From: Dyella dinghuensis
GTDB lineage: Bacteria > Pseudomonadota > Gammaproteobacteria > Xanthomonadales > Rhodanobacteraceae
DNA: 64,000 nt
Assembly: GCF_003977615.1 (NCBI RefSeq)
Contig: NZ_RYZR01000003.1
Location: forward strand, 434,001-498,000
Direction: 5' to 3'
The notes beneath the pieces were generated by a model. The model saw only the letters and a program-made list of their open reading frames with translations, made no database searches and was not told the DNA's origin. The translations under genes and the position numbers were made by a program. Shown here in pieces: positions 226 through 23,449 of the stretch (the first letter of the stretch is position 1; each line of letters opens with the position of its first letter).

Positions 226-695
226 ATAAAAACAATAAGTTAGCCTCGCCGCCGGCCAGATCTCTTGCCATACCACTTCGCTGTTTGTGGCTTATTTGCC
301 GTTTGATATGTGGCATCAATGGGGCCTGCAGAAATTTCATCGGGCAAATCAGAGTAAATCCCTTTGGCGTCAAGCTAAGTAGGCACGATTCGGTCTCACG
401 CTATTGAGCCCTACCCTTGCAGCTAGATGCAAAGTAAATGAACTTGCCGCAGCGCTAGGCGAGCGTGTTTATCAGCGGTACCCATCTGATCGCGCCAAAG
501 TGACAAACACCAACGCATCTATCGCGAAGCTGTCGGATAGTTACTCGTACCATGCGCGCAACCGCTCATGTAAAAATAACGGGCGACACGTCGAGCGCTT
601 TTAAAAACAGGGAGAGCTTGTAGACGCAGTCTGCAAGCTCGTAAATGGGGCTCGGAAGCGATTCCGAATGTGAGACAAAGCTAAGGGGACGAGGT
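226..695. other. intergenic region between tRNA-Leu and the S53-like gene
   Basis: This stretch of about 470 bases holds no gene I can support. Short open frames exist (93-407 and 404-604) but have no recognisable protein features. The frame at 93-407 runs through the tRNA. An interrupted inverted repeat, GAGCTTG (614-620) with CAAGCTC (634-640) and an inner GAC/GTC pairing, lies about 55 bases before the S53-like start. It may be a leader hairpin. Confidence 0.5.
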
Positions 696-3500
696 GTGCG
701 AAATAATCTGCGCATGAAGAAACTCGCGGCGGCGATGATGCTTGCTGCGTGCAGCATATCCACCAGTGCTATGGCACAAGCGGCACGCGGCACGAAGACA
801 GCCGCTAGCAGTCCGCTAGTAACATTGCATCCCGCAGTCAGTCTGCAGACAGGCGATACAGTGCTCGGACCGGTGGCCGTTTCGCAGCCGATACATGTTG
901 TCGTAACGCTAAAGCTGCGCAACGAGCAACAGCTTGATGATTACATTGCGAAGCCCGGCTTTCGGCCACTGACATCCGGTCAATTCCAGTTGCTGTACAG
1001 CCCGACGAGTCAACAGGCCCAGACCGTCGCCGACTACTTGACGAAGGCCGGCTTCAGCAATGTAACCATTTCGCGCGATCATGCACTGGTGCAAGCCGAC
1101 GGCCGTGCTGACACGGTGCAGGCAGCTTTTCATACGTCGCTCGTGCATGTGGCCACCCACGATGGTCGCGATGCCTTTGCCAACAACAGTGCGATACAGA
1201 TTCCGGTAGCTCTGCAAGACACGGTGCACGCGGTGCTCGGCCTGCAAACCGTGCATGCCGTCAGCGGCTCTGCCAGCGCGCCCGACCCGCTTATTCCCCA
1301 TGCCATGCAGCCCATGGACCTATCCGCGGGATCGGCGGTGGCACATCAACCCTCCGACTTCCCGATGATTTACGGTGCCAGCGGCATGCCCGCCGTCACC
1401 TCCGTTCCGGTGGGCTCCATTTCTGTCGGATCGATGACCAATGTGCTGGCGGATTTGAAGTCGCTGTATCCCAATGTCACGGTCACCCTGGAGGGTGACA
1501 CCAGCGCCGGTTATGGCAGCGACAACAGCGGTGGCGATGCGTTATGGGACATGGATAGCCAAGCCATCATTGCCTTCACCGGTGCCTCGCAGTATTACTT
1601 CTATGTTGCCGCCTACAACACGGATGCGAGTCTGGAAACGGCGATATCACAAGTCGTGTCGGATAACCTGGTGAAGGTGATCGCCCTATCCTTCGGCGAA
1701 TGCGAAAGTTCCGCGGAGGAGGATGGCGCGGTGTCAGCCATGGACACCTCGTTCAAGCAAGCCGTTGCGCAGGGACAAACGTTCTTTGCGTCATCCGGAG
1801 ACGGCTGCATCACCTATACCATGCCAGAGTGGCCGGCGAGTTCGCAGTACGTCACGGCGGTGGGCGGCACCGAGCTCTATACCAGTTCCAACACCACGTG
1901 GCAGGGCGAAGTGGCGTTCGACGATATCCCGCAACACGGAGGTGCCACGAGTGGTGCTCAGAGCCAATTCGAGCCGCTACCGAGCTGGCAGAAAAACGTC
2001 ACTGCTTACGACAACGGTTACGACCAAGGTTTTACCTATCGCGCCACGTCGGATATCGCGTTCGACGCCGCTCCCGGCATTCTGATCACAGTAGATGGTC
2101 AGGCAAATCATCAGGGCGCTGGCACGAATTTGTCCGCGCCGCTCGCCGCCGGTGCTTGGGCTCGTGTGTTGCAGGCCGATGGTCTCAGCTTAGGCTTTGC
2201 ATCGCCAGTCATTTACCAAGTGGCGCAGTCGTCGCAAATCAACTACAGCAATGCCTTTCACGATGTTGTCTCCGGCACGAACAATACAAAGAACGCGGGC
2301 TTGGGATGGGATTACCTAACCGGTTGGGGCAGCATCGTGGTGAACCAGTTCGCCAGCATGGCGGCTGTCAATGCCAGTGCACCGACCGTATCGTTTGGTA
2401 CCTTGCCCGCGCTGCAAGCTACGACGCCGATTCCGGGAAGTACACATACGCCGGGTGATTTCAACGGCGACGGCATATCCGATATGTTGTGGTTCAACCC
2501 GACGTCCAGCCAGATCGGTTATTGGACGATGAATGCAACGTCGAATACTGGCACGGCCACCGGCAACGTCACGCGTACCGGGCTTAGCAGTTACGACGTC
2601 ACGCCGGGCTATTTCGTCGGGGCGGTTGGCGATTTCAACAACGATGGCTACGCCGATCTGGTATTTACCAGCGCCAATCGCGATCTGTGGTTGTGGACGA
2701 ACAACCAGCAAGGGGGTTGGACGTCCTCGCGCATCAACGGTGGCAGTTATCCGAGCCAGTGGCAGTTGATCGGCGCCGGTGATGTCAATGGGGATGGTTA
2801 CGACGATCTGCTGTGGCTGGATCCGTCCGACTGCGAATTCGGCTATTGGACGATGAACGGAAGTACGGTCACGGGCTATCACACCGTCAACGTTGCGTGT
2901 GGCTATTACCCAATCAGCATTGGTTATTACTCGCCATCAAATCGATTGAGCATTATCTGGACGAGTCCGGCGAATGATCTGTATATCTGGGATAGCAACG
3001 GTGATGGCACATTCAAGGCCTACGACCTGACCACTGGCCTCAATAACAGCTTACCGGCAGGCAGCCACTTTACGTCGATGGGTGGCGGTTATAAGGGACA
3101 GAATATCGGTGTGCAGTTCAACACCACGCAAGGTGCCGAAGGCGGCTTGGCGGTAGCAGGTGGCTGGCTTTTTTCGCGAACATTTGATGCCAGCGGCAAT
3201 CAGACAGGCGTCACTTGGAAGGATTCCGCGATCGCTACGCAAGGCAGTACTCGCATTGCCGCCGCCGGTTACGTGATCGTCAGCAACAAACTCAACAACA
3301 CCGGTGTCTATGACATCGACCCCACCAACATGGTTGTTCACACCGGGGGCTTGTACAACAGCAGCGTGCCTGCTCAAACAGGAAACGCGCCAACGACTCC
3401 CGTGGACTATTCCGCAGGAAGCAGCAGCTGGAGTTATCCAGTTGGTTGGTGGGTGGTGGGTGCGTACTTCAACAACACCGCTGCGCCGCCCTGGCAGTAA
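696..3500 (+). CDS. secreted S53 (sedolisin-like) protein with FG-GAP repeats, probable pseudoprotease
   Basis: The predicted protein has 934 aa. I prefer the GTG at 696 because AAGGGG lies at 683-688; an ATG at 714 (MKKLAAAMM) also gives a good signal peptide ending near AMAQA. Residues about 35-180 match the pro-kumamolisin propeptide. Residues about 220-575 match the S53 catalytic fold, including the oxyanion Asp in SSGDG (D369) and the C-terminal calcium-site region ending TGWGS. The C-terminal third contains several FG-GAP/VCBS-type repeats with DFNGDG, DFNNDG and DVNGDG calcium loops. Two catalytic residues are missing. In xanthomonalisin the Glu precedes WDLDSQ, but here the text is ALWDMDSQ (Glu to Leu, residue 283). 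The Ser of GTS is Asn in GTNLSAP (residue 478). I infer a secreted, probably inactive binding protein. A remote S53 variant using other residues cannot be excluded. Confidence 0.85.
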   Translation: MRNNLRMKKLAAAMMLAACSISTSAMAQAARGTKTAASSPLVTLHPAVSLQTGDTVLGPVAVSQPIHVVVTLKLRNEQQLDDYIAKPGFRPLTSGQFQLLYSPTSQQAQTVADYLTKAGFSNVTISRDHALVQADGRADTVQAAFHTSLVHVATHDGRDAFANNSAIQIPVALQDTVHAVLGLQTVHAVSGSASAPDPLIPHAMQPMDLSAGSAVAHQPSDFPMIYGASGMPAVTSVPVGSISVGSMTNVLADLKSLYPNVTVTLEGDTSAGYGSDNSGGDALWDMDSQAIIAFTGASQYYFYVAAYNTDASLETAISQVVSDNLVKVIALSFGECESSAEEDGAVSAMDTSFKQAVAQGQTFFASSGDGCITYTMPEWPASSQYVTAVGGTELYTSSNTTWQGEVAFDDIPQHGGATSGAQSQFEPLPSWQKNVTAYDNGYDQGFTYRATSDIAFDAAPGILITVDGQANHQGAGTNLSAPLAAGAWARVLQADGLSLGFASPVIYQVAQSSQINYSNAFHDVVSGTNNTKNAGLGWDYLTGWGSIVVNQFASMAAVNASAPTVSFGTLPALQATTPIPGSTHTPGDFNGDGISDMLWFNPTSSQIGYWTMNATSNTGTATGNVTRTGLSSYDVTPGYFVGAVGDFNNDGYADLVFTSANRDLWLWTNNQQGGWTSSRINGGSYPSQWQLIGAGDVNGDGYDDLLWLDPSDCEFGYWTMNGSTVTGYHTVNVACGYYPISIGYYSPSNRLSIIWTSPANDLYIWDSNGDGTFKAYDLTTGLNNSLPAGSHFTSMGGGYKGQNIGVQFNTTQGAEGGLAVAGGWLFSRTFDASGNQTGVTWKDSAIATQGSTRIAAAGYVIVSNKLNNTGVYDIDPTNMVVHTGGLYNSSVPAQTGNAPTTPVDYSAGSSSWSYPVGWWVVGAYFNNTAAPPWQ

Positions 3501-3928: not shown

Positions 3929-5500
3929 TCACGCTACGCTTTTGTTGAGAACCTCGTTGATGGCTCGGATCAGATCGTCGCGTCCATACGGCTTAGTCAG
4001 CCGTATTGCACCGTCCGAGAGATCTTCCTGAATTTCTGCGTAGCCGCTGGCGAGCACAACCGGCAATGCTGGCCAGCGGATGTTCGCCTCATTGGTCAAC
4101 TGAGCACCGGTCATGCCGGGCATCGCATGATCGGTCAAAAGGACATCGACATCGTTGACACCTTCGAGAACGGCAATCGCCTCCTCCGCCGAAGACACCT
4201 CGATCACCTTATGTCCCAGGCTCTCGAGCACCACGCCAGTGGTTGCACGAACGAGCGAATCGTCGTCGACGACCAACACGCAAAGCGAATTGTTAGCCAA
4301 TGATAGAGAAGCGTTGCCAGTAGTCGGCGGCTTGAGGTCCCGGACGCGATCAACTTTGGTGCTTGGGAGCCACAACTCGACACGCGTACCGATGCCTTTG
4401 CTGCTTTTGATCACCATGCGGCCACCGGATTGCTCTAACAGGCCATGCACCATCGACAGACCCAGTCCCGTTCCTTTGCCGATGCCTTTGGTCGTAAAGA
4501 ACGGTTCCGTTGCTTTACCCATGGTGACTTCATCCATGCCGATTCCGTCATCGGATATCGCCACGCAAACATAGTCGCCAGGTTCGAGCTTCGTTGAATG
4601 TGCGCGATCGATCGTTACGCTATGAGCGGAAAATGTCACGTTACCGCCGTCAGGTAACGCATCGCGTGCGTTCACCGCCAGATTCATCACCGCCAGCTCA
4701 AACTGATTGGCGTCGACAGATACTTGGCCCAACGCGTTTGGAAAATTCGTGGTGAGACGAATTCTTGGCCCAAGAGATCGTTGCAGCATATCGGTCATGC
4801 CATCGATGAGATCCTTGAGGTCGATCACCTCGAGGCGAAGCTCCTGCTTGCGTGCAAAAGCCAACATACGCTGCGTCAGAGCCGAGCCTCGCTTGACGGC
4901 GGCCTTGGCATGGCTCGCCAGTTTGACAACCTGATCGGGTTGTTCGCACTTGATCTCCATCATCTCGAGCGAGCTGTGGATGATCATCAACAGATTATTG
5001 AAATCGTGCGCGACGCCACCTGTGAGTTTTCCAATCGATTCGAGTTTTTGCGACTGGAATAGTGCTTCGCGTGCGCGCTCAAGTTGCTCGTTGGCTTCCT
5101 TTTGAGGCGTGACATCGCGCGTTATCTTGGCATAACCGATAACGGCGCCTTCATCGTTGGTGATGCGATCGATGATGACGTGTGCCCAGAAACGGGTTCC
5201 ATCCTTGCGTAACCGCCAACCTTCATGCTCAAAACGGCCGTCCTGATGCGCAATGGACAAAGCTCGCTGAGGTAACTCTACCGCGCGATCTTCTTCGGTA
5301 TAAAACATGCTGAAGTGTTTACCCAGAACTTCGTCAGCCTGATAGCCCTTGAAGCGTTCGGCACCGAGATTCCAGCTGATGATGTTGCCGCGGGGGTCGA
5401 GCATGTAGATGGCAAAATCCGCAATCGCCTCCACTAGCGCCCGGTATTCCTGCGCAGAAAGGAATTCCAGGGAATGACGCTCACTCGTTTTGGCGACCAT
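3929..5500 (-). CDS. PAS hybrid sensor histidine kinase with C-terminal receiver
   Basis: The protein has 523 aa and no transmembrane segment, so it should be cytoplasmic. The order is PAS/PAC at about 15-135, HisKA with the phosphoacceptor GGVAHDFNN (His165), HATPase_c at about 265-380 with N box NLAVNARD and G box GKGTGLGLSM, and a receiver at about 405-520 with acidic patch VDDD and phospho-Asp457 in LLTDHAMPGMTG. It would sense a cytoplasmic cue through PAS, autophosphorylate and relay internally. I chose the ATG at 5500, not an upstream in-frame start, because GAGGAG sits just before it and the PAS domain follows. No cognate output gene is adjacent, although two orphan regulators lie within 4 kb. 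The ligand cannot be read from the sequence. Confidence 0.93.
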   Translation of the reverse strand: MVAKTSERHSLEFLSAQEYRALVEAIADFAIYMLDPRGNIISWNLGAERFKGYQADEVLGKHFSMFYTEEDRAVELPQRALSIAHQDGRFEHEGWRLRKDGTRFWAHVIIDRITNDEGAVIGYAKITRDVTPQKEANEQLERAREALFQSQKLESIGKLTGGVAHDFNNLLMIIHSSLEMMEIKCEQPDQVVKLASHAKAAVKRGSALTQRMLAFARKQELRLEVIDLKDLIDGMTDMLQRSLGPRIRLTTNFPNALGQVSVDANQFELAVMNLAVNARDALPDGGNVTFSAHSVTIDRAHSTKLEPGDYVCVAISDDGIGMDEVTMGKATEPFFTTKGIGKGTGLGLSMVHGLLEQSGGRMVIKSSKGIGTRVELWLPSTKVDRVRDLKPPTTGNASLSLANNSLCVLVVDDDSLVRATTGVVLESLGHKVIEVSSAEEAIAVLEGVNDVDVLLTDHAMPGMTGAQLTNEANIRWPALPVVLASGYAEIQEDLSDGAIRLTKPYGRDDLIRAINEVLNKSVA

Positions 5501-5827
5501 AGGTTGCTCCTCGCGGCGCCGCGGGTACTTTGAGACTATAACAAGCGCCAACGGGAGACCGCGTGACGAAATATGCGCAGTGTTCGTAGGCCACACGATG
5601 CAAGCGTTCGGTGGCGATTCATCGCTTAACGGCAGCCTAAACCACGATTTCTCATCTGGCACCCGGTTTCGCATCCGTGGACGCCCAACGCGTTGTGCCT
5701 GACCTCGTCTTGCCGATGACTCTAAAATCACTCGACGGGGTCACTTCAATCACGCGGCTTGGAACATCCTGTGTTTGCCGTCCGGGCACACTGTTTCATT
5801 TTCTACTCATAGCCAGGAATCCATACC
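5501..5827. promoter_or_regulatory. divergent intergenic region between the hybrid kinase and PRC-barrel genes
   Basis: These 327 bases separate two divergent genes and should contain both promoters. No clear sigma-70 pair stands out. A GGAAC string at about 5761 resembles the -35 of extracytoplasmic-function sigma promoters, but I see no convincing partner, so this is only a hint. An in-frame upstream extension of the kinase to 5731 lacks coding character. Confidence 0.35.
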
Positions 5828-9065: not shown

Positions 9066-10115
9066 ATGAGCTTGCCCATGCGCCAATCTCTTGCCATCGC
9101 CTTGCTTGCATCATTAGCCTGCGTTGCTGCCGCTCCTTTTGCGACAGCCGCCGATGCAGCCGCACAATCCCCCTATAAAGTGATCGGTCGCCTGACGCTT
9201 GGCGGCACCGGCGGCTGGGATTACCTCAGCTTTGATTCACAACGTCGTCATCTATTTGTTAGTCGCGGCGATCGCGTGTTGGTTATCGATGTCGATGGCA
9301 ATAAGCAGATTGGCGAGATTCCAGGCACCAGTGGTGTGCATGGCATTGCCATCGCGCAGGATTTGCATCGTGGCTTTACCAGCAACGGTAAGGCAAATTC
9401 TGTGACCGTTTTCGATTTGGATACGCTCAAGACTGTCGGCACCATTGCTGGCACGGGGCAGAAGCCGGATTCGATCATCTATGACAGCGCGTCGCATCAT
9501 GTGCTGACGTTCAACGGTAAAAGTGGTGATGCTAGCGTTATCGATCCCACCGCCGCCAAAGTTGTCGCCACGATCGCGCTACCCGGTAAACCGGAGTTCT
9601 CGGCCGCCGATGGTCAGGGCCATGTCTATGTAAACCTCGAAGACAAATCCGAGCTTTCAGAGATCGACACAAGCACGAACAAAGTGCTGCAAACATGGTC
9701 GCTCGCACCGTGCGAATCGCCCAGCGGTCTGGCCATGGATATTGTACATAAGCGGCTTTTCTCGGTCTGCGATAACCAGAAGATGGCGGTACTTGACGCA
9801 ACGAATGGTCACGTCGTCGCAACCTTACCCATCGGTGATGGCCCAGATGCAGTGACTTTCGATCCTGAGCAAGCGCTTATTTACAGCTCGAATGGCGAAA
9901 GCGGTACGTTGACGGTTGTGCATGAAGACGATCCCGATCACTACTCGGTCGTCGCCAATGTTCCTACACAGATCAGTGCTCGCACGCAGGCACTGGATAC
10001 ACAAAAGCACCGCGTATATCTGTCATCGGCCAAGCTCGGCACCGACAAAGATGCGCATGGTCGCCAGCAACCTGTAGCGAATAGCTTTGCCATTCTTACC
10101 GTCGGCAAGCCCTAA
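9066..10115 (+). CDS. YncE-like periplasmic beta-propeller protein
   Basis: The protein has 349 aa. A signal peptide with cleavage near FATAAD precedes repeated blades of the YVTN/YncE type, such as LFVSRGDRVLVIDV, SVTVFDLDTLKTVGTI, ASVIDPTAAKVVATI and MAVLDATNGHVVATL. Such seven-bladed propellers are periplasmic and are often linked with iron or heme handling or with binding other molecules. The real ligand is unknown. Alternative starts at 9066 and 9078 differ by four residues. A hairpin shared with the convergent histidine kinase follows. Fold assignment is firm; function is open. Confidence 0.85.
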   Translation: MSLPMRQSLAIALLASLACVAAAPFATAADAAAQSPYKVIGRLTLGGTGGWDYLSFDSQRRHLFVSRGDRVLVIDVDGNKQIGEIPGTSGVHGIAIAQDLHRGFTSNGKANSVTVFDLDTLKTVGTIAGTGQKPDSIIYDSASHHVLTFNGKSGDASVIDPTAAKVVATIALPGKPEFSAADGQGHVYVNLEDKSELSEIDTSTNKVLQTWSLAPCESPSGLAMDIVHKRLFSVCDNQKMAVLDATNGHVVATLPIGDGPDAVTFDPEQALIYSSNGESGTLTVVHEDDPDHYSVVANVPTQISARTQALDTQKHRVYLSSAKLGTDKDAHGRQQPVANSFAILTVGKP

Positions 10116-10129
10116 AAGCATCGCTTGAA

Positions 10130-10164
10130 TAACCGCCGGTAGTGCCTGAGCACACCGGCGGTTA
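10130..10164. terminator. hairpin between convergent genes
   Basis: TAACCGCCGGT (10130-10140) pairs perfectly with ACCGGCGGTTA (10154-10164) around a 13-base loop. It lies between the convergent YncE-like and histidine kinase genes. There is no strong T tract, so rho-independent termination is only probable. Confidence 0.5.
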
Positions 10165-10172
10165 GGCAACCG

Positions 10173-11594
10173 TCATACCGATTCCGTAGATGCGCCACGC
10201 ACAAAATGTGTGGGAATCACGACGCTTACTCGTAGACCACGACCGGAAGGCGCATCGAGCAGTTCGATCGCAGCGTTATGCAACTGCGCGGCGCGTTGCA
10301 CGATCGACAGTCCCAGTCCGTAGCCGTCTCCGCTGCTGCTCGCCTCACGATGGAAGCGTGCAAAGACGCTGGCGCGACGCTCCGCAGGAATGCCAGGTCC
10401 GTTATCGATCACCTCGATCACGGCCGCTTCCGTCGCTCGCTTCAACAACAATTGAACGCTGCCGCCGGCGGGAACATGATGCATCGCGTTTTCGATAAGG
10501 TTACGCAGCAATGCGGCCAAAGCCGCTTCGTATCCTTGTACTTTCAACGTATCTTCGTGACCGACAAACGCGAACTCGACGCCACTTTCGCCCAGCAAAG
10601 GCGCCAGTTCATCGATGACATTCATCGCCACGACAACAAGATCGACCTCACTGCGCTGTCCTGCTGCAGCGCCCGCTTCCAATCTCGCCAAGGCAAGCAG
10701 TTGTTCGATACGCCGGGCAAGTCTTGAAAGACCAACCTGAGCGCTAGCGAGAGAAGCCTTGGTCGCCGGAAGCTCGCTCGTCGATAACGCGCCGTCCAGG
10801 TGAATCATCGTCGATGCCAACGGCGTGCGTAATTCATGTGCGACGTCGGCACTGAAACGCCGCTCGCGTTCCAGGGCATCTTCCAGACGTTCCAACTGCG
10901 CATTGAGCGCTTCGATAACAGGTTGCAATTCCTGCGGCGCTCTTTCCAGCTCGATGCGCCGGCGGCTACCCGGTGCGCGCGATGCAAGCGCTTGCCTCAG
11001 ACGTTCCAGCGGACGCAACCCGCGGCGCACAGCCCAGCCGATCAGCAGTGCCAGCAACGGGAGCCCGATAAGCAGTGGCATGCCAAGATCCAGCCACAAG
11101 GCATGCGAAATACCGCGGCGGCTGTCATCGCGCTCGCCCATGCGAATGACAAAGCCGTTGGCATCATCCACGAAGGTAAACACGCGCCATCCGTAACCAT
11201 CGAACTGATAGTTCTCGAAACCCGATAACGGTGTTTGCGGCAGCGGTAATTGCGCGAGGTTGGCGGTTGTCAGGCGTACGTGACCGTGCATGTCGAACAC
11301 TTGATAGCCCACTTCGGACTCGTAGGTTCGCCCATGCATCAGCTCTTCTTCGGCTTTGCGGCCGATGACGGGTACGATAAGTGGCCCCTGCTCCGGACGG
11401 CGCAATGCATCGATGCCCTCGTGCTGCATCAATACATCGAGCGTGCGTGCGGATTCGGCAAGACGGCCATCCAGCAGTTCGTGCGTTTCGATCAGCGTAC
11501 GCCGAAAGCTGTAGAGGCCTAATGGCAGCAACACCGCGAACAGCAAAGTGACGATCATCCAACGCAGGCGTCCCTGCAGGCTTAGTGGCTTCAC
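10173..11594 (-). CDS. membrane sensor histidine kinase (QseC/PmrB class)
   Basis: The protein has 473 aa. TM1 is at about 12-30, a periplasmic sensor region at about 31-168, TM2 at about 170-188, then a HAMP-like linker. HisKA has His253 in ADVAHELRTPLA. HATPase_c carries N box NLIENAMHH, G1 NGPGIP and G2 GDGYGLGLSIV. The start is GTG, overlapping the upstream regulator's stop as GTGA, which implies translational coupling. With the adjacent regulator it forms a complete two-component system. Members of this class respond to cations, antimicrobial peptides or other envelope signals; the specific stimulus is not visible here. Confidence 0.93.
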   Translation of the reverse strand: MKPLSLQGRLRWMIVTLLFAVLLPLGLYSFRRTLIETHELLDGRLAESARTLDVLMQHEGIDALRRPEQGPLIVPVIGRKAEEELMHGRTYESEVGYQVFDMHGHVRLTTANLAQLPLPQTPLSGFENYQFDGYGWRVFTFVDDANGFVIRMGERDDSRRGISHALWLDLGMPLLIGLPLLALLIGWAVRRGLRPLERLRQALASRAPGSRRRIELERAPQELQPVIEALNAQLERLEDALERERRFSADVAHELRTPLASTMIHLDGALSTSELPATKASLASAQVGLSRLARRIEQLLALARLEAGAAAGQRSEVDLVVVAMNVIDELAPLLGESGVEFAFVGHEDTLKVQGYEAALAALLRNLIENAMHHVPAGGSVQLLLKRATEAAVIEVIDNGPGIPAERRASVFARFHREASSSGDGYGLGLSIVQRAAQLHNAAIELLDAPSGRGLRVSVVIPTHFVRGASTESV

Positions 11595-12256
11595 GTTGGG
11601 TCTCTTGGAATCATGTAGCCGACGCCTCGAATCGTGCGGATCGCATCGAAGCTGAGTTTGCGTCGCAGTGCATGGATTTGAACCTCCAAGGCGCTGCTGC
11701 CCACGGGGTTGTCGAGGCCGTAAAGCGAATTCTCCAGATGCTCGCGCCGCACGATGCGCCCCGCCCGCTCCATCAGTATGCGCAATAACGAGAACTCGCG
11801 ACGCGTCAGCTCGATGCGTTTGCCGCGATATTCCGCTTCGGATGTTCCGATATCCAGGCTGATCACACCGACGTCGATGCGGTTGGCGGCTAATCCTTGT
11901 GCGCGCCGCGTCAGCGAGCGAATGCGCGCACTAAGCTCATCGACATGGAACGGCTTCACCAGATAGTCATCCGCACCTGCATCCAGACCGCGAACGCGTG
12001 CTTCGAGCGCATCGCGCGCCGTCATCACGATCACCGGCGTGTTGACATGCGCGCGGCGCGCTTCGGCCAAGACGTCCAGCCCGTCCTTGCCCGGCAAGCC
12101 CAGATCCAATAGGACGAGGTCCGCCGTCTGATCGCGCAACGCCACCAGCGCCTCGCGGCCATCGCGCAACCACGTAACCGCGTAGGAAAGCTTTTCCAAC
12201 GCGTTCTGAATCGCGGTGCCGAGCTGAAGGTCGTCTTCGACCAGGATGATGTGCAT
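11591..12256 (-). CDS. OmpR-family response regulator (QseB/PmrA class)
   Basis: The protein has 221 aa. The receiver (1-115) has EDD, phospho-Asp51 in LVLLDLGLPGKDG, Thr in VMTARD and Lys in YLVKPF. The winged helix (about 125-218) contains LTRREFSLLRILM and ends RTIRGVGYMI. It overlaps the downstream kinase gene by 4 bases, so the pair is expressed together. It should bind direct-repeat promoter sites as a dimer. The promoter probably lies in the 500-base region upstream. Confidence 0.95.
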   Translation of the reverse strand: MHIILVEDDLQLGTAIQNALEKLSYAVTWLRDGREALVALRDQTADLVLLDLGLPGKDGLDVLAEARRAHVNTPVIVMTARDALEARVRGLDAGADDYLVKPFHVDELSARIRSLTRRAQGLAANRIDVGVISLDIGTSEAEYRGKRIELTRREFSLLRILMERAGRIVRREHLENSLYGLDNPVGSSALEVQIHALRRKLSFDAIRTIRGVGYMIPRDPT

Positions 12257-12760
12257 ACCGTTATGACCTTCTGAACCCTATCGCCGGGCGTACCCTCGCA
12301 AGCGATTGTGCAGAGATTAACTTAGGGTGGTCTTACTTATCCTTTCTCCAGTCACGCCCCTAATTGGCCAAGACGAGCTTCTGCCGGCGATTATTCGAGA
12401 TTTTCCAAAGGCTTGTATGTTCCGAAACAACAAGGAGCATGAGCAGCCCAACGGTCGCGTGCGGACCAATGAGACTTAAGGACGATCGGAAGGGCTCAAA
12501 ACACCCTGGCGATTCAAGCACGTGACACAAACCTGCCACACATTTTCAAGGCGTCATCGAAGTAGACCTCGCTTTGGAAGCAACGCACTTCTCAAGCCCT
12601 CCAGACGCAAAAAGCAGCCTTTCTTTCGACCCATGCCGAGCCGGAAGAAGCCGTGCTACGCTATTTCGGTATCGCGAACATAGTGATACGGCTTCACGGA
12701 CCACGGATGGCCGCGGCAAGGCGTCACGTGGTGTAAAACGGCACTGCGGGGGCGTGGGCG
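12257..12760. promoter_or_regulatory. 504-base divergent intergenic region
   Basis: This region separates the two-component pair (leftward) from the YbjQ/PspA cluster (rightward) and must hold promoters for both. I see no clear promoter pair, operator or hairpin. A tiny frame at 12430-12516 (28 codons, preceded by AAGGAG) is possible but lacks features. Other frames here, such as 12574-12957, look like chance. Confidence 0.4.
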
Positions 12761-13150
12761 TTGAGCAGTTTTCCAAACGATTTCGATCTGAATGCGGCAT
12801 GGTTTCGCAAGTCGCAAGGCGATCTGAAGGCATTCATGGAGGCCTTCGCGGTGCGACTGGAAGGCGCCATTCCCGGACGCGTGACGGTAGAGCGCCAGAA
12901 GGACGGCCTGTTCTCCAAGATCAGTCACGCCGTCAAGATCTCGGTCGATGCACATAACCACACATACGTGCTTGCGCTGCAGAAGAGCCGTCTTCTGGCA
13001 CAGCGCAGCAAGAGCGTACACGGTGTGACGCTAAGTACCGAACAGATGGATGTGCCGGCATGGCTTGCCGCTCTCCACGACGAAATTCAGGCGCTCGCCG
13101 AACACGCCGGTTCCGCGCAAAACGTACTACACGATTTCCTGATGTCCTGA
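12761..13150 (+). CDS. unknown protein, first gene of the YbjQ/PspA cluster
   Basis: The predicted protein has 129 aa with a TTG start behind a G-rich stretch (GGGGGCGTGGG). There is no signal peptide and no membrane segment. The N-terminus is acidic and aromatic (FDLNAAWFRKS). The middle, GRVTVERQKDGLFSKI then AVKISVDAHNHTYVLALQ, looks like alternating beta strands, and the C-terminus (WLAALHDEIQALAEHAG) is helical. I recognise no family. It is read in the same direction as two YbjQ-like genes and a PspA gene with short gaps, so it probably belongs to their operon. The TTG start makes the exact N-terminus uncertain. Confidence 0.65.
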   Translation: MSSFPNDFDLNAAWFRKSQGDLKAFMEAFAVRLEGAIPGRVTVERQKDGLFSKISHAVKISVDAHNHTYVLALQKSRLLAQRSKSVHGVTLSTEQMDVPAWLAALHDEIQALAEHAGSAQNVLHDFLMS

Positions 13151-13228
13151 CGATGATGTCCGCGTGTCCGGCGGCTCAACCGTTTATCGCTCGAATCCCG
13201 CTGCAAGGATTACAGCCTGGAGTTTCGA

Positions 13229-14179
13229 ATGTCATGGTTTGATCGGTTCAAAGGTAATACCCCTTCCCCGTCCTCCCAGGGCGCACCGCAACAAGATTTT
13301 GCCGGCAGCAATGCCGAGCGGCAGGCGGAATGGGAAAGTGCGCTGCATCATCATCGCCTTCCCGCCTTCGTCAAACAGCGTCTGAGTGACGCATCCAGCG
13401 GGAAACTTCCGTGGATCTCCACGATGACGCCTGCGGAGCTTGCGCAAACGCATCGCTACAAGGTTCGCCCCATCGCGATGGTGTCCGGCACATGCTGGTA
13501 TCACTATGGCTATTCCTGGACGAATGGACACACAGCAGGGTGGCATCAGGCGCTCAAGCGCATGCAGCAGGAAGCCGTCGCTGCCGGTGCCAACGCCATC
13601 GTCGACGTGCGTATGCGCAAAATCAATCTGCACGTGGGCGCGAGCATGGACTTCACCGTGATGGGCACCGCGATTCGCGTCGAAGGCCTGCCGCCCAATC
13701 CCGAGCCGGTGGTCGCGACGGTGACCGCGCTTGAATTCATGCGCTTGCTCGAGGCCGACATCGTGCCGACGGGCATTGCGATTGGCGCGCACTACGAATG
13801 GCTGAATTCTTACTCATGGGCCAATCTCGACGCCAAGGGCGGCTGGATCAATCAGCCGCTTACCGAACTGGGTAACTTCTGGGAACGCGTACGGCGCAAG
13901 GCACTTCTCCAGCTTCGCCAGGACACGCAGCGCGATGGCAATGGCGTGCTTGCACATACGCATTTCGGCGAATTGCTGAAAGTTGAAGAGCAGAACGCCG
14001 CTCGTTACCTGGGCCGGCACATCGTGATCGGCACCGTGGTGGATAGCAAACGCTACGGCGCTGTGCCGCATGACATCCGACATGTTGTAGATATGTGTGA
14101 TGGCACTTCGCCGATGCTCGAAGAACGCCAGCATGGACACAACGCTTATGACACCAATCAGGAAGAGGGTTCGATATGA
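13229..14179 (+). CDS. YbjQ-like (putative heavy-metal-binding domain) protein
   Basis: The protein has 316 aa. Residues about 75-155 and about 165-290 resemble YbjQ/UPF0145-type domains: a strand with VSGTCWYHYGYSW, a helix with GWHQALKRMQQEAVAAGAN, then AIVDVRMRKIN and a hydrophobic strand ending MGTAIRVEG. The second copy is more diverged, with GAHYEWLNSYSW and WERVRRKALLQLRQD. The N-terminal 60 residues are polar linker. There is no signal peptide. YbjQ folds form pentameric rings; their 'heavy-metal-binding' label is a family name, not a proven activity. GGAG precedes the ATG, and the stop overlaps the next start as ATGA. Confidence 0.75.
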   Translation: MSWFDRFKGNTPSPSSQGAPQQDFAGSNAERQAEWESALHHHRLPAFVKQRLSDASSGKLPWISTMTPAELAQTHRYKVRPIAMVSGTCWYHYGYSWTNGHTAGWHQALKRMQQEAVAAGANAIVDVRMRKINLHVGASMDFTVMGTAIRVEGLPPNPEPVVATVTALEFMRLLEADIVPTGIAIGAHYEWLNSYSWANLDAKGGWINQPLTELGNFWERVRRKALLQLRQDTQRDGNGVLAHTHFGELLKVEEQNAARYLGRHIVIGTVVDSKRYGAVPHDIRHVVDMCDGTSPMLEERQHGHNAYDTNQEEGSI

Positions 14180-21318: not shown

Positions 21319-23052
21319 ATGAATAGAACAGATTTGATGAAATCGTTTTCGGCGAAGGGGATTTTCAATTCGCGCGGCAAGCTCTGCGCGCTGCCCTTGG
21401 CAATCATGATGGCAGTTGGCGCAAGCGGCGCTGCCAATGCAGCGCAGTTCTACACGCATCACGTGAGAGCGGCAGTCGCTCAGGCCACAGCGCAAGAAGT
21501 AGGCACGCTTCCTTCCAGCAAACTAATGGCCATTGATGTTGTGCTGCCCGTACGCGATCAGGCCAGCCTTGATCAGTTCGTGGCGGCCGTCAGCAACCCG
21601 GCAAGCCTGCAGTATCGGCAATACGTGACACCACAAGAGTTCACCGAACGCTTTGGGCCTTCGCAAAGTGACTATGACACCGTCGTTCAATACTTGACGA
21701 GAAACGGTTTCACGGTGACCGGTGGAACCCGTGACAGCATGGACGTGCAAGCTGTAGGTCCGGTTTCTGCCGTGGAAACGGCCTTCAACGTCAAGATGCG
21801 CATGTATCAGCATCCGACTGAGAATCGCCAGTTCTACGCGCCAGATCGTGAGCCGACCACTTCGCTTGCCATTTCGTTGTGGCACGTGTCGGGCCTCGAC
21901 AACTATTCGATTCCGCATCCGCAGTATGAGAAGAAGAGCGATTACGCCGCCGCACACGGCATTTCGCCAGACGCCGTGGTGTCGCATGCGACCACCGGCT
22001 CGGGCCCGTCTTCTTCGTTCCTGGGCAGCGACATGCGCGCGGCATATTACGGTAACGGCTCGCTTACCGGTGCAGGTCAGACGTTGGGTCTCTTTGAATA
22101 CTATGGCATCAATACCGCGGACATCACGCTGTATTACAAGAACGCCAAGGAAACCAATCCGAATAACCTCACCGTTGTTTCTACCGACGGCACCTCCACG
22201 AGCTGCACCGGTAGCTGTGACGATGGCGAACAAGCGCTCGACGTGACGCAAGCACAAGGCATGGCGCCAGGGCTTTCCAGCGTCGTCATGTATGTCGGCT
22301 CCACCGACACCGCCATCATTAGCGCGATGACAACGACAACCGATTCCAACGGAGTGTTGCCGCTGACGCTCAGCTGTTCGTGGGGCTGGACGCCGGAAGA
22401 CGCCACTACACTCGATCCCTATTTTGAAAAGATGGCCGCACAAGGCCAGAGCTTCTTTGTCGCGTCCGGCGATTCGGGTGAATGGACAAAGACCGGCAAC
22501 GCAGAATCGTGGCCTGCTGACGATGCTCACATCATCAGCGTCGGTGGCACCGATCTGGTGACATCGAGCGCCGCAGGTCCCTGGAAGTCGGAAACAGCGT
22601 GGAGCGATTCATCGGGTGGTATTTCCCCCAACGACATCGCCATTCCCACGTGGCAGCAGATCTCCGGCGTCATCACCTCAACCAATAAGGGCTCAACGAA
22701 ATATCGCAACGGTCCAGATATTTCGGCCAATGCAAACTTCACCTTCTATACCTGCGCCGACGGCAGCTGCCAGGCAAATGAGTATGGTGGTACGAGCTTC
22801 GCAGCACCCATGTGGGCCGCGTTTGTGGCGTTGGCCGATCAACAGATTGCCAACAACGGCAGCACCGCCTATGTGGGCTTCTTGAACCCAACGGTCTATG
22901 CCAACAATGCACCCGAAGGAACGACCTATACGACAACGTTCCACGACATCACGAGTGGCAAGAACGAAAAGTTCTCGACTGAAAAGGGCTATGACCTCGT
23001 CACTGGATGGGGCAGCCCACAAGCTGCGCTGATCAACAACCTGGCTCAGTAA
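21319..23052 (+). CDS. secreted S53 family serine-carboxyl peptidase (kumamolisin-like), catalytically intact
   Basis: The protein has 577 aa. A signal peptide (LPLAIMMAVGASGAANAA) is followed by a pro-kumamolisin propeptide (about 50-200) and the S53 catalytic domain (about 215-577). The triad is present: Glu304 and Asp308 in GEQALD and Ser493 in GGTSFAAP, with oxyanion Asp385 in ASGDSG. The C-terminal calcium site region FHDITSG and GYDLVTGWGS is intact. Family members are acid-active secreted endopeptidases that mature by autocleavage. The enzyme probably degrades external protein. A strong terminator follows. It contrasts with the triad-deficient paralogue at 696-3500. Confidence 0.95.
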   Translation: MNRTDLMKSFSAKGIFNSRGKLCALPLAIMMAVGASGAANAAQFYTHHVRAAVAQATAQEVGTLPSSKLMAIDVVLPVRDQASLDQFVAAVSNPASLQYRQYVTPQEFTERFGPSQSDYDTVVQYLTRNGFTVTGGTRDSMDVQAVGPVSAVETAFNVKMRMYQHPTENRQFYAPDREPTTSLAISLWHVSGLDNYSIPHPQYEKKSDYAAAHGISPDAVVSHATTGSGPSSSFLGSDMRAAYYGNGSLTGAGQTLGLFEYYGINTADITLYYKNAKETNPNNLTVVSTDGTSTSCTGSCDDGEQALDVTQAQGMAPGLSSVVMYVGSTDTAIISAMTTTTDSNGVLPLTLSCSWGWTPEDATTLDPYFEKMAAQGQSFFVASGDSGEWTKTGNAESWPADDAHIISVGGTDLVTSSAAGPWKSETAWSDSSGGISPNDIAIPTWQQISGVITSTNKGSTKYRNGPDISANANFTFYTCADGSCQANEYGGTSFAAPMWAAFVALADQQIANNGSTAYVGFLNPTVYANNAPEGTTYTTTFHDITSGKNEKFSTEKGYDLVTGWGSPQAALINNLAQ

Positions 23053-23359: not shown

Positions 23360-23449
23360 TGGCGGAGAGAGTGGGATTCGAACCCACGGTAGGCTTACAC
23401 CTACGGCAGTTTTCAAGACTGCTGCCTTAAACCACTCGGCCATCTCTCC
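23360..23449 (-). tRNA. tRNA-Ser (anticodon UGA)
   Basis: This is a complete class II tRNA on the minus strand. The acceptor GGAGAGA starts at 23449. The anticodon loop CTTGAAA gives UGA. A long variable arm follows, then T arm GTGGGTTCGAATCCCAC, and encoded CCA ends at 23360. It lies downstream of serS in the same direction, a natural pairing of tRNA and its synthetase. A strong terminator follows. Confidence 0.96.

Follow-up and report, generated by a model that had tools for sequence, protein, structure and literature searches.

In the genome of the soil bacterium Dyella, we identify a gene for what we interpret as a secreted S53 (sedolisin-type) pseudoprotease, kept for a non-catalytic job that would consist of binding through an FG-GAP propeller; we give this reading a probability of roughly 60%. 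The gene lies at 696-3500 (+) of the window, the 64,000-nucleotide stretch of DNA that was analysed. That its product is a genuine S53 pseudoprotease is well supported by sequence comparison, while its function is something we can only infer. The catalytically dead form has been seen in a single genome, which keeps the standing of the finding as a whole moderate.

The open reading frame runs uninterrupted through 951 codons (645-3500 (+)). Its start codon is likely the GTG at 696, with an SD-like AAGGGGACG upstream at 684-692, or else the ATG at 714; residues are numbered here with ATG 714 as residue 1, and a count from GTG 696 runs six higher. A Sec-type signal peptide, MKKLAAAMMLAACSISTSAMAQA, is judged by eye from the translation at 714-782 (+), followed by a Pro-kumamolisin activation domain (the propeptide) at 861-1250 (+) (Pfam PF09286, E 3e-20, residues 73-202 of the 951-aa frame). 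The remaining domains, placed like the first by profile and phmmer searches, are an S53 catalytic-type domain with a broken triad at 1326-2357 (+) (phmmer to sedolisin 1ga1, E 1.5e-50, residues 228-571) and a C-terminal FG-GAP domain, a probable beta-propeller, at 2391-3497 (+) (Pfam FG-GAP and FG-GAP_3, with a weak predicted model). With both similarity to a solved sedolisin and the activation domain found in its sequence, the protein is a member of the S53 family by descent.

The original prediction had read the motifs ALWDMDSQ and GTNLSAP as an S53 active site with Glu replaced by Leu (residue 283) and Ser by Asn (478) and with the oxyanion Asp (369) retained, in the count from GTG 696. Both motifs are present, and alignment to 1ga1 together with the codons places the three residues, 277, 363 and 472 in our numbering, at Glu80, Asp170 and Ser287 of sedolisin. 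Leu277 (TTA, 1542-1544 (+)) thus occupies the position of the catalytic Glu and Asn472 (AAT, 2127-2129 (+)) that of the nucleophile Ser, while the triad Asp (Asp281, 1554-1556 (+); sedolisin Asp84) and the oxyanion Asp (Asp363, 1800-1802 (+)) are kept; an active S53 enzyme requires all four. The S53 calcium-site region (HDV...GWD, aligned with sedolisin) and the propeptide are likewise retained, as had been claimed, and the second S53 gene of the window, which had been offered as an internal comparison, is intact as described (21319-23052 (+); Glu304, Asp308, Ser493; a distant paralogue about 27% identical).

The presence of other Glu or Ser residues at the active-site positions would have overturned the prediction, and in the alignment with the FG-GAP-fused siblings we see no substitute near 277 or 472. 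Ser474 also occurs in the intact siblings (GTSLSAP), and the Asp at 275 is common to them as well. At the same codons the five fused relatives carry GAA or GAG (Glu) and AGC or AGT (Ser), and the Glu-to-Leu exchange to TTA therefore took two base changes. In addition, just after the oxyanion Asp, the window protein lacks four residues that its fused siblings carry between Gly364 and Cys365. Because of this two-base exchange, the four-residue loss and changes at 18 of 116 otherwise invariant positions, chance or a single read error can be rejected; sequencing error, which would also have to explain the one base at Ser472, is ruled out. We infer that the protein lacks peptidase activity. A precedent comes from human TPP1, where exchange of the equivalent serine (S475L) is reported to abolish activity, and where the pro-form of this variant still gets processed in patients (PMC2914745); hence retention of the propeptide by the window protein is not a given.

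How unusual this loss is becomes clear from a survey of 16 Dyella genomes, which returned 141 Pro-kuma matches at E 1e-6: 17 from the 4.2-Mb genome of the window (the window lies in its contig 6), 37 from loci collected earlier and 87 in 83 further stretches. The set of 140 S53 catalytic domains leaves out two duplicate fragments of a tandem pair in D. psychrodurans (G011) and a 222-aa frame without a catalytic domain (G002). Aligned by two methods, 138 of the 140 keep Glu/Asp/Asp/Ser, which supports the assignment as a pseudoprotease. The two exceptions, the window protein (Leu/Asp/Asp/Asn) and a paralogue at L016:6658-9135 (Ser/Gly/Asp/Ala), both belong to the genome of the window, where the other 15 of 17 paralogues are intact; none of the 123 domains in the 15 congeners is dead (2/17 versus 0/123, Fisher p 0.014), so the search of related genomes for the same substitutions that had been proposed came back empty. 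Beyond the genus we scored the best three candidates from each of 233 family genomes and the best two from each of 398 order genomes. Among these best candidates, the full-length fused relatives are two Rhodanobacter proteins, both intact; seven shorter family or order matches are intact too, giving nine intact relatives (three further shorter S53 matches, G174:C7, G172:C4 and G023:C57, lie outside this count). No relative sharing the losses of the window protein was found in the genus, family or order searches, which thus give no sign of the dead state being conserved across species. Among 47 plasmid records, no place covered 80% of the query, and the best places were all below 60% identity. 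The 222-aa frame in G002 (C17:173873-174283) carries the activation domain alone, about 1 kb before another Pro-kuma match, and is possibly a truncated copy in a congener.

The closest relatives of the window protein share its whole layout. Three intact paralogues in the same genome, together with single proteins from Rhodanobacter sp. C01 and sp. 7MK24, are 58-60% identical to it, and all five keep Glu/Asp/Asp/Ser. The three paralogues, the second dead S53 and the free-standing FG-GAP genes described below had not figured in the original prediction. Trees put the window protein within or at the base of this fused group, its exact place being weakly supported, and give it the longest terminal branch of the group. 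At E 1e-80, 14 of 15 congeners have a match, covering the propeptide and catalytic part with the exception of one FG-GAP-only match in G001.

The distribution of changes along the protein bears directly on whether the gene is still used. Nineteen other sequences define 116 invariant positions in the catalytic domain, and the window protein departs from them at 18, the Glu and Ser losses included, where the five intact fused relatives do so at 0, 1, 5, 1 and 6 of 98-104 (p 0.029 versus the most changed of them). In the FG-GAP part, where seven other sequences define the invariants, only 2 of 138 are changed (relatives, 0 to 8 of 136-144), a contrast with the catalytic domain that is significant (Fisher p 2.7e-5); the propeptide has 4 of 62 changed (relatives, 0 to 3 of 58-61), a share not significantly different from that of the catalytic domain (p 0.10). 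Tajima relative-rate tests follow the same pattern: the window protein has more unique changes than the sibling in 10 of 10 catalytic comparisons (p < 0.05 in six) and in nine of 10 propeptide comparisons (two below 0.05), whereas its FG-GAP part does not differ from that of intact siblings (0/10 reach 0.05, all p > 0.3). These comparisons share sequences and are hence not independent, and, since two of eight control tests between intact siblings exceed 3.84 (propeptide, L012 versus L054, 11.8; catalytic domain, L012 versus L018_4813, 5.6), they are not fully clean.

The most serious alternative is that the gene is a decaying paralogue, a redundant copy that lost catalysis during the S53 expansion of its genome and is drifting towards a pseudogene with no present function. 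We regard this as unlikely but well short of negligible, for the genome holds 17 Pro-kuma matches where each of the 15 congeners has 4 to 12, and among the 16 genomes the dead state occurs there only and has befallen a second paralogue. A purpose-written codon branch model on a fixed polytomy gave a window-branch omega of 0.154 for the propeptide, 0.186 for the catalytic domain and 0.148 for the FG-GAP part, each below 1 (p 1.3e-11 or smaller) on long branches with synonymous sites near saturation, and none different from the background (2 delta lnL 0.39, 0.37 and 0.004). This omega averages in the time before the loss and so cannot date the loss of catalysis, a point in favour of decay. Against decay stand the open 951-codon frame, an omega far below 1 in all three domains, and simulations of neutral drift over the whole gene: of 500 runs that reached 18/116 changes, only two did so without a stop codon and 498 with one, and such drift predicts about 21 changed FG-GAP invariants where two of 138 are observed. 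Given the open frame, an omega of 0.15-0.19 and the 18/116 versus 2/138 changes, the gene is not an obvious dying pseudogene. From the invariant counts, the rate tests, omega and the simulations, we conclude that constraint was lifted in the catalytic domain with the FG-GAP part kept under selection; lost catalytic residues thus coexist with an intact, constrained frame, the combination looked for in a pseudoprotease kept by selection, with omega including pre-loss time.

What the FG-GAP part might do is suggested by its motifs and by its occurrence elsewhere. Three calcium-loop-like motifs, DFNGDGISD (2457-2483 (+)), DFNNDGYAD (2631-2657 (+)) and DVNGDGYDD (2781-2807 (+)), lie in register with those of the siblings within a region matched by the Pfam FG-GAP profiles; we take such loops to be calcium-binding, and the domain is probably so too. 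A model of the domain built from three sequences has a mean pLDDT of 52. Judged by their names, most of the structures listed for it by Foldseek, at TM 0.25-0.42 of the query, are propellers and include fucose-binding lectins, which hints at a fold but says nothing of a ligand; the whole-protein model (mean pLDDT 37.8) was set aside. A sequence search of the FG-GAP part against solved structures gave a single match at E 0.2, taken as chance, and an NCBIfam XAC2610 match under its cut-off, covering 18 positions, was taken as a shared calcium loop. The domain also stands alone: two frames of 410 aa each with signal-like N-termini (L018:8239-9468 and 9512-10741 (+)) are flanked on either side by an intact S53 gene with fused FG-GAP. 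The order search, with two candidates scored per genome, adds five matches to FG-GAP only, whose frames measure 397-420 aa, from three other family genomes. Beyond the genome of the window, FG-GAP-only matches come from G001, G061, G069 and G076. In a search of 369 genomes of the class, a draw with few family genomes, a match at E 1e-60 was present only in the genome of the window. The idea in the original prediction that a pseudoprotease joined to FG-GAP repeats has a binding role thereby gains indirect backing, as the relative-rate tests detect no difference between its FG-GAP part and those of the intact siblings but a faster catalytic part, and as the FG-GAP domain occurs on its own; the results speak neither for nor against the surface, decoy or inhibitor-capturing roles that were also offered there.

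The second dead S53 (L016:6658-9135 (+), contig 6 about 11657-14134; Glu to Ser, Asp to Gly, Ser to Ala) has lost the whole triad and retains the oxyanion Asp. Immediately upstream of it, in the same orientation, is an intact paralogue (L016:4273-6654, 66% identical; the matches of the pair are at 9299-11653 and 11693-14134 of contig 6), and in D. psychrodurans both members of a comparable tandem pair are intact. The dead member differs at 28 of 282 otherwise invariant positions as against 5 of 259 in its partner; this count alone is not diagnostic, because G014b, another member of that alignment with intact catalytic residues, is about equally divergent (27/281). Both dead copies keep the oxyanion Asp and one directly follows an active paralogue, features which raise the speculative idea, to us an improbable one, that this Dyella lineage turned secreted sedolisins into pseudoproteases at least twice independently, forming an arrangement of active and dead copies, similar to that of the Csp proteins, that controls extracellular acid proteolysis or senses substrates.

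Slightly more doubtful still is that the window protein itself tunes the three intact FG-GAP-fused enzymes, through its propeptide or by competing for substrates or partners. In Clostridioides difficile, CspA and CspC are described as subtilisin-like pseudoproteases with mutated catalytic residues that are thought to control CspB (PMC6464247), and this precedent, the three siblings of 58-60% identity in the same genome and the same-strand tandem that the other dead S53 forms with the intact one just before it all speak for regulation of this kind. Against it, the window gene lies on a contig apart from its three fused siblings, and its propeptide is 63-70% identical to those of siblings and relatives, which among themselves reach 71-87%, so that no special conservation of the propeptide is seen. 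That the protein is an altered yet active enzyme, with other residues standing in for Glu80 and Ser287 or with self-cleavage supported by Asn472, is very improbable: the S53 fold expected from sequence, the retained Asp84 and Asp170 and the low omega would fit, but no Glu or Ser is newly placed nearby, the TPP1 S475L exchange abolishes activity (PMC2914745), and changes accumulate at otherwise invariant positions of the catalytic domain.

Upstream lie a tRNA-Leu (139-225) and, judged by eye from their translations, a response regulator and an RNase E-like gene; downstream, on the opposite strand, is a histidine kinase-like frame (3929-5731), which has a strong match in six congeners. In the four of these six that were examined, the analysed stretch around the kinase contains no S53 gene like that of the window, so these congeners do not share the site of the gene, a point against the reading as a protein kept for binding. 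The G+C content of the gene (54-61% in 500-base steps) is slightly above that of the next 5.5 kb (50-57%) and overlaps it, and recent horizontal gain was set aside on this composition. Both S53 genes of the window have a tRNA within about half a kilobase (Leu, 139-225; Ser, 23360-23449), which may be coincidence.

Returning to the pseudoprotease kept for binding, we envision that the protein would be exported by its signal-like N-terminus, could not cleave peptide bonds, and probably would not remove its own propeptide. It would thus persist as a folded pro-form, barring trimming by a sibling protease. With calcium, the FG-GAP propeller may then bind a ligand, be it a surface, a glycan or a protein, and the dead protease part might act as a scaffold or as a binding partner, whether for the three intact siblings or for the substrates of these. 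Of the 17 S53 paralogues in the genome two are dead and fifteen intact, and FG-GAP occurs both fused and free, which makes the genome a natural experiment in turning a secreted protease into a binding protein.

Among the papers listed by searches of the open-access literature, none describes an S53 pseudoprotease by its title or the start of its abstract. MEROPS and similar databases hold non-peptidase homologues that have gone undescribed. Likely inactive homologues were dismissed before counting in one study (PMC5567314), and sequences were filtered on catalytic residues in another (PMC6278154); by such filtering, S53 pseudoproteases may be known as discarded entries. Bga1903 of Burkholderia gladioli, considered as a relevant case, is described as an S8 enzyme (PMC8002681) and was set aside. 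Pseudoproteases in general are known in several families, with the subtilisin-like Csp proteins as bacterial examples (PMC6464247).

Compared with sedolisin-type S53 peptidases (1ga1, 1nlu), the window protein has the same signal, propeptide, catalytic domain, calcium-site region, triad Asp and oxyanion Asp, but its Glu and Ser are replaced and an FG-GAP C-terminus is added. The five intact FG-GAP-fused S53 proteins have the same three-domain layout and differ by keeping Glu/Asp/Asp/Ser; relative to its siblings, the window protein also lacks four residues just past the oxyanion Asp. MamO, a pseudoprotease of the bacterium Magnetospirillum that binds metal and has a role in magnetosome development, is likewise a bacterial protease homologue in a non-catalytic role, a likeness drawn from its description (PMC6464247). 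CspA and CspC differ in being subtilisin-like rather than S53, in being spore proteins and, as described, in having no FG-GAP fusion, and their role rests on genetics whereas that of the window protein is read from sequence only. They are nevertheless the nearest precedent, from family S8: bacterial protease homologues that serve in a role without catalysis alongside a relative that is active (PMC6464247).
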